Origin: Candidatus Goldiibacteriota bacterium
Lineage (GTDB): Bacteria > Oederibacteriota > JAAXVQ01
DNA: 39,014 bases
Reading direction: 5' to 3'
Assembly: GCA_020052235.1 (NCBI GenBank)
Contig: JAGVPM010000093.1
Location: 1 to 39,014, forward strand
The number at the start of each line of letters is the position of its first letter. Within the stretch, counting starts at the first letter, position 1. The translations under genes and the position numbers were made by a program. The notes under the pieces were generated by a model. That model did no database searches. It had not been told where the DNA came from and was given only the letters and a program-made list of their open reading frames with translations. Below are positions 5,202 through 8,475 of this stretch, one piece after another.

Positions 5202-5204
5202 GCT

Positions 5205-5224
5205 GTTTTTTGGTTTCGCTGAAG
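5205..5224 (+). repeat. Left short imperfect repeat flanking the defence cassette
   Basis: GTTTTTTGG followed four bases later by GCTGAAG. The same two words occur at 7324-7341 with a two-base spacer. The two copies bracket the AT-rich AAA ATPase/RloB cassette. They may be a relic of its insertion or may be chance. Confidence 0.35.
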
Positions 5225-5287
5225 ATTGATAAGGAAAAGAATGCTTGAAAAAAACGATTTTATTGCCAAAAAAGACAAGAGAACGAT

Positions 5288-5368
5288 AATAGCGAGAACA
5301 TTTCTCGTTATTGTGCTTTACATAGCGGTTTTGTTTATATAATAATAAGTATTATGAGAAAATTTCTC
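5288..5368. promoter_or_regulatory. Pair of matching palindromic operators around the defence-gene promoter
   Basis: The 14-mers GAGAACATTTCTCG (5294-5307) and GAGAAAATTTCTCG (5356-5369) differ at one base and are each inverted repeats around a short centre. The left site extends to 11-bp arms with one mismatch (5288-5298 and 5302-5312). Their centres are 62 bp apart, close to six helical turns, and a sigma-70-like promoter lies between them. This is the geometry expected for a dimeric repressor bound on both sides of a promoter. The regulator is not identified; no repressor gene lies next to the pair. Confidence 0.6.
5317..5343 (+). promoter_or_regulatory. Putative sigma-70 promoter of the AbiL/RloAB-like pair
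   Basis: TTTACA (5317-5322) and TATAAT (5338-5343) are separated by 15 bp, somewhat short, but the -10 box is perfect and sits in a very AT-rich tract. It lies between the two palindromic operators, about 50 bp before the ATPase start codon at 5391. An SD-like AGAGGTG is at 5376-5382. Confidence 0.5.
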
Positions 5369-5390
5369 GCTTTCTAGAGGTGAATTAAGA

Positions 5391-6662
5391 ATGCTTATTC
5401 AATTTACAGTTGGCAATTTTTTGTCATTTAAAGAAAAAGTTACGTTAAGCATGGCAAAGACTGCTAAGCATGAATTGCCGGAAAATGTAATTAAAATAAG
5501 TGATGATTTTGAACTGCTAAAAAGCGCGGTAATTTATGGCGCAAATGCGAGCGGAAAAAGTAATTTGATATTTGCCCTGAATTTTATGAGGTTTTTTGCT
5601 ATTAATTCATTCAAGGAATATCAGGTGGATGAGGAAATAGGAATGGATGGTTTTCTCTTAAGTGATGAAACAAAAAGCAAACCATCGTTCCTTGAGATTG
5701 TGTTTCTAATCGATAATGTTACATATAGGTACGGTTTTGAATTCGATAAGAAGAAAGTGAGTAAAGAATGGCTTTACCATATCCCGAAAGCAAAAGAAGA
5801 AAAAATATATTTTCGTGAAGGTTCGAACTTTGATGTTGATAATTTTCCTGAAGGGCAGGGCAAAGAATCTAACGCAAGAGATAATTGTCTTTTTTTGTCC
5901 GTGCTTTCTCAACTCAACGGTCCGATATCTTCTAAAATAATAAAGTGGTTTATGAAAATTAGCCCCGGTAGTTCATTCTGGAGAATTGATTCCGTAATTT
6001 CACAAATTGAGGAAGATCCGAATCTTAAAGAAGGAGTTTTAAAATTTGTATCTATCGCTGATAATGGAGTTAAGGATTTTCAAATAAAATCAATTGATAT
6101 ACCGCCGGAATCATCCGGGGGAAATATTTCGCAAAAGAAACAAACAGGAACAATAAAAAAATTAGTATATTTTATTCGTAATATATTCAATGAAAAAAAA
6201 GAACCTAGTGGAGAATTGGCGTTGGGTCTTGAGGTCTCTGAATCAGCAGGCACAAGAAGAATGTTTGTTTTGTCAGTACCTGTGATCAATGCTCTTAAAA
6301 ATGGAGAGATAATATTGATTGATGAAATTGAAAATCATTTACATCCACTGCTATTTAAACATGTTATTAAACTATTTAATTCATATTCTAATAAAAATAA
6401 CGCCCAACTGATTTTTACAACTCATAATTTAACATGTATGAATAATGAGTGCTTTCGCAGAGATCAAATATGGTTTACGGAAAAAAACAGTTATGGTGAA
6501 TCAAGCTTGTTTTCTTTAGCGGATTATAAAATTGACGACAAGAGCATAAGAAAAGATGAGAATTATAGTAAAAATTATTTGCTGGGGAAATATGGGGCTG
6601 TGCCTTTTATTGATGAAATAAATTTGTCTTGCAAGGAAACGGATGATGGGTCATCAAAGTAA
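5391..6662 (+). CDS. AAA15-family ATPase of an AbiL/RloAB-type defence pair
   Basis: This 423-residue ABC/SMC-like ATPase has Walker A GANASGKSN at residues 50-58, Walker B with LIDEIENHLHP at about 308-318, and a switch motif IFTTHNLTCMNN shortly after. The architecture matches the COG1106/AAA15 ATPases called RloA or AbiLi, which pair with an RloB nuclease-like partner in abortive-infection systems; PARIS uses a similar ATPase with a different effector. The next gene overlaps it by 20 bp and encodes the RloB partner. The DNA is markedly AT-rich compared with the flanking pump genes, suggesting acquisition. Its promoter region carries a paired operator. The anti-phage role is inferred from family and pairing. 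Confidence 0.85.
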   Translation: MLIQFTVGNFLSFKEKVTLSMAKTAKHELPENVIKISDDFELLKSAVIYGANASGKSNLIFALNFMRFFAINSFKEYQVDEEIGMDGFLLSDETKSKPSFLEIVFLIDNVTYRYGFEFDKKKVSKEWLYHIPKAKEEKIYFREGSNFDVDNFPEGQGKESNARDNCLFLSVLSQLNGPISSKIIKWFMKISPGSSFWRIDSVISQIEEDPNLKEGVLKFVSIADNGVKDFQIKSIDIPPESSGGNISQKKQTGTIKKLVYFIRNIFNEKKEPSGELALGLEVSESAGTRRMFVLSVPVINALKNGEIILIDEIENHLHPLLFKHVIKLFNSYSNKNNAQLIFTTHNLTCMNNECFRRDQIWFTEKNSYGESSLFSLADYKIDDKSIRKDENYSKNYLLGKYGAVPFIDEINLSCKETDDGSSK

Positions 6663-7266
6663 TCCATATAAAAGACAGATTAGCCAGCGATCAATAAGAA
6701 AGATATTAATTGTATGCGAGGGTGAAAAAACAGAGCCTAATTACTTTAAAGCTTTTCAGGCAAATGGGGAATTGATCACAGTAGAAGTCCGTGGCTTAGG
6801 AATGAATACGGATTCCTTGGTTGAACATGCGATTGAATTGAAGCGTGCTGCCGAATTAAGCAAAGAACCATATTCTGTGGTTTGGTGTGTTTTTGACAGG
6901 GACTCATTTCAATCAAATCAGTTTAACGGGGCGATTCAGCTTGCGAAAAACAAGCAAATAAAAACAGCATATTCCAATCAGGCTTTTGAAATATGGTATA
7001 TCTTGCATTTTAGCTACCATCAGGCGGCATGGGAGAGGGACAAATATAAAAGCAAGTTAACCGAACTGCTTGGTTCTGAATACCAGAAAAATGATCGTGA
7101 AATGTATGTAAAGCTTAAAGATAGGCAACAGGCTGCCATTGCCAACGCTAAAAGACTTTTGGAAAATTATGGCCTAAAGCATAATCCTGAATCCGATAAT
7201 CCATGCACTAAAGTACATGAATTAGTTGAGTTTCTGAATCAATATTTGGAGGATGAAGAAAAGTAG
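6643..7266 (+). CDS. RloB-family protein (AbiLii-like, Toprim-type putative nuclease)
   Basis: This 207-residue protein has the RloB layout: basic N-terminus with RKILIVCEGEKTEPNYF (Glu at about 26 and 28), an acidic pair in VVWCVFDRDSF (Asp 85 and 87), then AYSNQAFEIWYILHF. The glutamate followed by a DxD pair is what is expected of a Toprim-like metal-binding site. RloB proteins are found beside AAA15 ATPases in restriction loci and as AbiLii in lactococcal AbiL. The start overlaps the end of the ATPase gene; a second ATG lies at the next codon. The overlap and shared AT-rich composition indicate one two-gene unit. In this family the ATPase is thought to sense infection and the partner to act as effector; that is inference for this case. 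Confidence 0.83.
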   Translation: MMGHQSNPYKRQISQRSIRKILIVCEGEKTEPNYFKAFQANGELITVEVRGLGMNTDSLVEHAIELKRAAELSKEPYSVVWCVFDRDSFQSNQFNGAIQLAKNKQIKTAYSNQAFEIWYILHFSYHQAAWERDKYKSKLTELLGSEYQKNDREMYVKLKDRQQAAIANAKRLLENYGLKHNPESDNPCTKVHELVEFLNQYLEDEEK

Positions 7267-7323
7267 CAAGACCAAACCGAAACTTGATAGGAACAAGTCG
7301 GAAGAGTATGACAGACCGCGCCC

Positions 7324-7341
7324 GTTTTTTGGCCGCTGAAG
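7324..7341 (+). repeat. Right short imperfect repeat flanking the defence cassette
   Basis: GTTTTTTGG, two bases, then GCTGAAG, matching 5205-5224. A small hairpin CCGC-TGAA-GCGG (7333-7344) overlaps it. The 135-bp gap between the RloB gene and the PII-like gene (7267-7401) shows nothing else clear. Confidence 0.35.
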
Positions 7342-7401
7342 CGGGAGGCTGTTTTGAGGACGTTTATGTAGATTGATCCGAAGAAGAAAGGGAATCGGAA
7401 T

Positions 7402-7794: not shown

Positions 7795-7810
7795 CAAATT
7801 TAATTCATCT

Positions 7811-8475
<665 letters not shown>

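Follow-up and report, generated by a model that had tools for sequence, protein, structure and literature searches.

It is an open question how two-gene defences built from an ATPase and a nuclease spare the host while no phage is attacking, and the locus described here raises it in a concrete form: which protein would read the two palindromes that surround the promoter of such a gene pair? The window, i.e. the whole 39,014-nucleotide stretch of DNA analyzed from a Candidatus Goldiibacteriota bacterium (genome G000), had been described in a first-pass annotation as carrying two dyads that flank the promoter of an AbiL/RloAB-like gene pair at 62 bp center to center, with the left dyad reaching 11-bp arms. 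Both points were borne out. The putative upstream operator O1 spans positions 5288..5312 with the core CGAGAACATTTCTCG at 5293-5307 (center 5300), and its imperfect 11-bp arms, AATAGCGAGAA/TTCTCGTTATT, are complementary at 10 of 11 positions; the putative downstream operator O2, TGAGAAAATTTCTCG, spans 5355..5369 (center 5362), and neither is assigned to a strand. Between them a consensus scan predicts a sigma-70-type promoter on the plus strand (5317..5346, from TTTACA at 5317 to AATAAT at 5346) with an exact TATAAT at 5338-5343, and a probable ribosome-binding site, GAGGTG, is seen in the sequence at 5377..5382 (+).

The identity of the gene pair also held up. The abiLi gene (rloA-like; 5391..6662, +) encodes a 423 aa ABC-type ATPase of the AAA_21 family, and abiLii (rloB; 6643..7266, +), which overlaps it by 20 bp, encodes a 207 aa effector of the RloB family. 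Both PADLOC (AbiLi, 2.1e-97; AbiLii, 3.6e-32) and Pfam (AAA_21, 2.4e-39; RloB PF13707, 3.6e-50) recognize the pair, which has the AAA_21/AAA_15 ATPase and the adjacent effector in the operon that mark an AbiL system, and the same two genes, order and overlap as AbiLi/AbiLii and RloA/RloB. The nearest folds to the AF2 model of AbiLi (pLDDT 88) are the heads of Rad50, SMC and PtuA, a class that dimerizes and binds DNA, and AbiLii (pLDDT 92) is modelled as one Rossmann/Toprim-like domain whose N-terminal tail is basic. As in autoregulated toxin-antitoxin operons, the palindromic operators overlap the operon's own promoter; the recognizable HTH or other DNA-binding domain of such operons was found in neither AbiLi nor RloB by Pfam scans or in the AF2 models.

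The module is a probable horizontal acquisition. In a genome of the same genus (G001) approximately 38 bp separate the orthologues of the two genes on either side, as at an empty site, compared with 2.2 kb in the window, and the GC content is 0.30-0.38 over the operators, the promoter and both genes versus 0.53-0.57 in the flanks. The probable insert, with operators, promoter and both genes, would span 5202..7401 (no strand assigned), and since the site is empty in G001 and operators and genes alike are AT-rich, the operators most likely arrived together with the genes.

If the dyads matter, close homologues should keep them, and a comparison of the upstream regions shows that the closest one does. 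The nearest homologue, in Elusimicrobia CG1_02_37_114 (L031), has an AbiLi with 73% amino acid identity, and upstream of it TGAGAAAAATACTCA occurs twice, exactly 62 bp apart, at a distance to the start codon within 2 bp of that in the window. The two copies surround a TTGACA-17-TAATAT promoter in the same place as the promoter of the window, and the promoter sequence outside the dyads has diverged between the two loci. This genome and that of the window seem to come from different phyla; the phylum of L031 holds 341 genomes (G385 to G724), with no overlap with the phylum mates of the window genome (G001-G044). Directly upstream of the AbiL pair in this homologous locus (L031:2004-3414) lies a pair that is AbiEi/AbiEii-like as judged from the translations. 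The adjacent AbiEi was considered as the regulator and rejected, as there is no site in its own promoter and no AbiE gene adjoins the pair in the window.

De novo counting of dyads in the 200 bp upstream of 102 AbiLi homologues, a set in which some minus-strand loci stood in the opposite orientation, ranked TGTGA-N5-TCACA first (12 loci versus 0.03 expected). From 125 orientation-corrected promoters of non-redundant AbiL operons, with near-duplicates removed, we obtained the family matrix [AT]TTTG[TCA]GA-N5-TC[AGT]CAAA[AT] (in summary form [AT]TTTGNGA-N5-TCNCAAA[AT]). It describes an odd-centered palindrome of 15-21 bp at AbiL promoters across phyla, and the dyads of the window (YGAGA..TCTCR; CGAGA...TCTCG) are one variant of it. 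The matrix, which was fitted on the same, mutually related loci that it scores, reaches at least 9 bits upstream of 85 of the 125 operons, compared with 2.8 expected from first-order Markov shuffles; in a held-out test, a matrix trained on the first 88 loci recovered sites at 18 of the 37 later loci (0.65 expected). As a control, among 284 regions that lie upstream of other genes of these loci, 10 score. The view that most AbiL-type pairs lack such a switch, as implied by the earlier remark that most are described without one, was thus not upheld, about a third of the homologues being without a scoring site. A scan restricted to paired dyads missed most homologues because these have a single site or differ in a base.

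The hosts of the element include Cyanobacteria, Chloroflexi, Elusimicrobia, Omnitrophota, Desantisbacteria and KSB1, as well as Bacteroidota, Desulfobacterota, Fibrobacterota, Acidobacteria and Bacillota, and an Enterococcus plasmid copy has the same dyad geometry. Spacers of 5 and 7 (the same dyad) are most enriched, and even spacers are not clearly so. Columns 6 and 16 of the matrix, the variable third base of the arms, co-vary, with 53 of 85 sites complementary (shuffles: mean 32, maximum 46), as would be expected for symmetric recognition. Four Bacteroidota loci (L085, L086, L089, L100) carry a variant dyad, TTTTG(T/C)...GCAAAA, approximately 22 bp before the start codon, which the matrix under-scores, and upstream of an AbiLi homologue in Desulfobacteraceae (L069:3830-3900) there are different, direct repeats, CGACCAATCTTATAACAATCTTATAA, approximately 50 bp apart.

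The dyads favour two positions, just upstream of the -35 and over the start site, seen as peaks at -80..-99 (12 versus 2.7 expected) and -30..-39 (19 versus 1.4 expected) relative to the ATG. In the window, O1 is centered at -91 bp and matches the first of these, and O2, which covers the predicted transcription start, is centered at -29 bp (family peak -30..-49). Where a second site was present, the spacing was 60-63 bp in 7 of 11 cases versus 0.30 expected; the listed pairs, some with weak second sites, include L031 (62), L035 (62), L038 (61), L105 (62), L070 (60) and L114 (63). By the family matrix O2 scores 13.2 bits and O1 only 2 bits, and for this reason the window itself is absent from the count; twins at 62 bp in L124 and L274 were found later by eye. 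A spacing of approximately 62 bp corresponds to six helical turns, so that O1 and O2 would face the same side of the helix, as would fit cooperative binding or a small loop. The positions and spacings support the view that the dyads behave as conserved twin operators with a fixed spacing near whole helical turns. It is clear that the twin-operator observation is confirmed as real and is more general than first noted, and O1 and O2 are almost certainly a functional, conserved operator pair.

As to the factor that binds them, the first-pass annotation had noted that no repressor gene lies beside the pair, and had concluded that the controller would be encoded elsewhere. The first part is correct: no dedicated regulator gene adjoins the AbiL operon, including any WYL/HTH regulator gene of the BrxR/CapW type. 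A dimeric repressor whose gene lies at another place in the host genome, and which would bind both sites and silence the pair until infection, would agree with the lack of an obvious DNA-binding domain in AbiLi and RloB, and the dyads do resemble ordinary operators of HTH dimers with about one turn between the half-sites. Such a repressor would, however, have one target and no autoregulated gene, since a search of the whole genome (3.17 Mb, 99% complete) for GAGAAMATTTCTCG with up to 2 mismatches gave O1 and O2 as the only exact matches and no site with 1 mismatch. The motif is thus not scattered at random, nor does it have the extra copies at 0 or 1 mismatch that would mark a host regulon, and an unlinked regulon was judged less likely on this ground. 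The 2-mismatch sites inspected are nearly all intragenic, and one precedes an ftsH-like gene. Across 20 other genomes, sites with no more than 1 mismatch are about as numerous as those of a reversed-pattern control or modestly more so, exact sites are few, and the inspected ones outside AbiL promoters adjoin unrelated genes. Viral contigs with paired sites gave three matches, at least two of them intragenic, which were judged to be chance. In the genome of L031, a lone 1-mismatch site (L140:1159-1173) lies directly before a HEPN/MNT-like toxin-antitoxin pair; no partner site was seen, and this candidate was set aside.

A host repressor also sits badly with the same operator geometry in many phyla and in unrelated gene contexts, and with the finding that two copies in one genome can differ in their operators, as in G124 (L115 with TGAGA..TCTCA versus L131 with a TTGCA-type dyad) and in G733 (L075 versus L246). 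The neighbours of 27 operator-bearing loci, judged by reading, are unrelated and include no common regulator. Since the operator is nearly private to AbiL, the neighbours share no regulator, and copies in the same genome differ, a factor carried by the module is favoured, and a host-encoded repressor appears unlikely. With no other exact site in the genome, no common neighbour, and a site that accompanies the module in different phyla and at different points of insertion, control from elsewhere was judged less likely than autoregulation; from these sequence comparisons it is quite probable that the AbiL module regulates itself.

Within the module, the operators could also be bound by RloB, or only by an AbiLi-RloB complex, through the basic N-terminal tail of RloB. 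The tails are indeed basic throughout (median 27 residues, net charge +7, n=92 proteins), and many toxin-antitoxin complexes repress better than a single partner. Against this, confidence in the predicted tail is low and its sequence is poorly conserved, and sites, including 62-bp twins, accompany AbiLi-type ATPases downstream of which no RloB was found. In L097 the site is present and the partner is an unknown 149 aa protein (L097:5349-5795); in L124 the twin precedes an ATPase gene followed by a DUF4062 gene (L124:2729-3631); in L274, whose ATPase is 89% identical to that of L124, the next gene encodes an unknown 324 aa protein (L274:2736-3710); and L208 has a perfect GCGTGTGAAAATTCCACACGC. 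There are few such loci, and in some of them a decayed partner may be present, but the retention of sites where RloB is missing or replaced indicates that the operator follows the ATPase, and binding by RloB or only by the complex is distinctly unlikely. Operator similarity tracks both AbiLi and RloB similarity (Mantel r ~0.33, p 0.0005), and covariation between residues and operator, tried as a means of naming the binder, was rejected as confounded by clade. The downstream genes of L124, L274 and L097 are themselves candidate new effectors, and the operator provides a DNA signature by which related modules whose effectors are unknown could be found, for example the one with the DUF4062 neighbour.

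That the dyads act otherwise, as the site of an activator, as a hairpin at the 5' end of the mRNA or as an infection sensor bound by a phage protein, is very unlikely: O2 could form a 5-bp hairpin near the predicted mRNA 5' end, but O1 and the other upstream sites precede the -35 and would stay untranscribed, shuffled sequences fold as well as this region does (z -1.0), on which ground an RNA hairpin was rejected, and it would be odd for an activator to bind over the start point.

We therefore prefer to regard the dyads as operators through which a self-contained AbiL anti-phage module regulates itself, with AbiLi-based binding, a reading to which we assign a probability of roughly 0.55. The AbiLi ATPase, alone or in complex, is the likeliest binder, and the chances that AbiLi is the operator binder are about even. 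Sequence-specific binding by AbiLi would be unusual, because neither protein shows a recognizable HTH. In the proposed mechanism, a symmetric form of AbiLi with its Rad50/SMC/PtuA-like head, expected to be a dimer, would bind O1 and O2 on the same DNA face, alone or with the effector, and would deny RNA polymerase access to the promoter, so that expression of the toxic effector pair stays at a low, set level; a phage trigger that engages AbiLi could, speculatively, free the promoter. More generally, and only tentatively, at somewhat less than even odds, AbiLi-type ABC ATPases without an HTH may be sequence-specific, palindrome-binding autorepressors with two operators six turns apart, where the infection sensor sets the expression of its toxic partner. 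A conserved, portable operator without a dedicated repressor gene offers a testable answer for AbiL to the question posed above, namely that the sensor ATPase may repress itself.

No description of an operator or of autoregulation for AbiL/RloAB was found in the open-licence papers searched, and the novelty of the AbiL operator is provisional. AbiLii/RloB has been described as a Toprim_OLD effector with the AAA proteins as antitoxins (PMC10440598), and in one test AbiLi failed to neutralize a toxic Fusobacterium AbiLii (PMC3985639). The nearest precedent is AbiE, a type IV toxin-antitoxin system whose AbiEi acts as an autorepressor at paired repeats by means of a winged HTH (PMC3985639). AbiE is likewise a two-gene abortive infection operon with paired inverted repeats at the promoter, there bound by a module-encoded protein, but AbiEi has a winged-HTH domain and its repeats are longer (11-23 bp), whereas such a domain is missing from the AbiL proteins, and the AbiL dyad is a different one. 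PARIS (AriA/AriB) also combines an ABC ATPase with a Toprim nuclease, and AbiLi matches the PADLOC AriA model too, but AriB is a DUF4435 protein and not RloB; a twin operator was not described in the PARIS paper searched. The BrxR and CapW WYL repressors and RptR repress phage-defence operons through inverted repeats at the promoter (PMC9122588, PMC9122589, PMC9122601, PMC12255303); they differ from AbiL in that the DNA-binding regulator has a gene of its own next to the operon.

Two further observations concern the window and its genome. The region 7800-7925, upstream of a pyrR-like gene (7930), has a hairpin and T-run leader with the look of a transcription attenuator, without an Rfam match at the gathering threshold. 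Elsewhere in the genome, at 17981-19252 of contig C178 (L130), there is a second AbiLi copy, 37% identical, which has a TGA in frame and an RloB gene after it and is probably a decayed paralogue.
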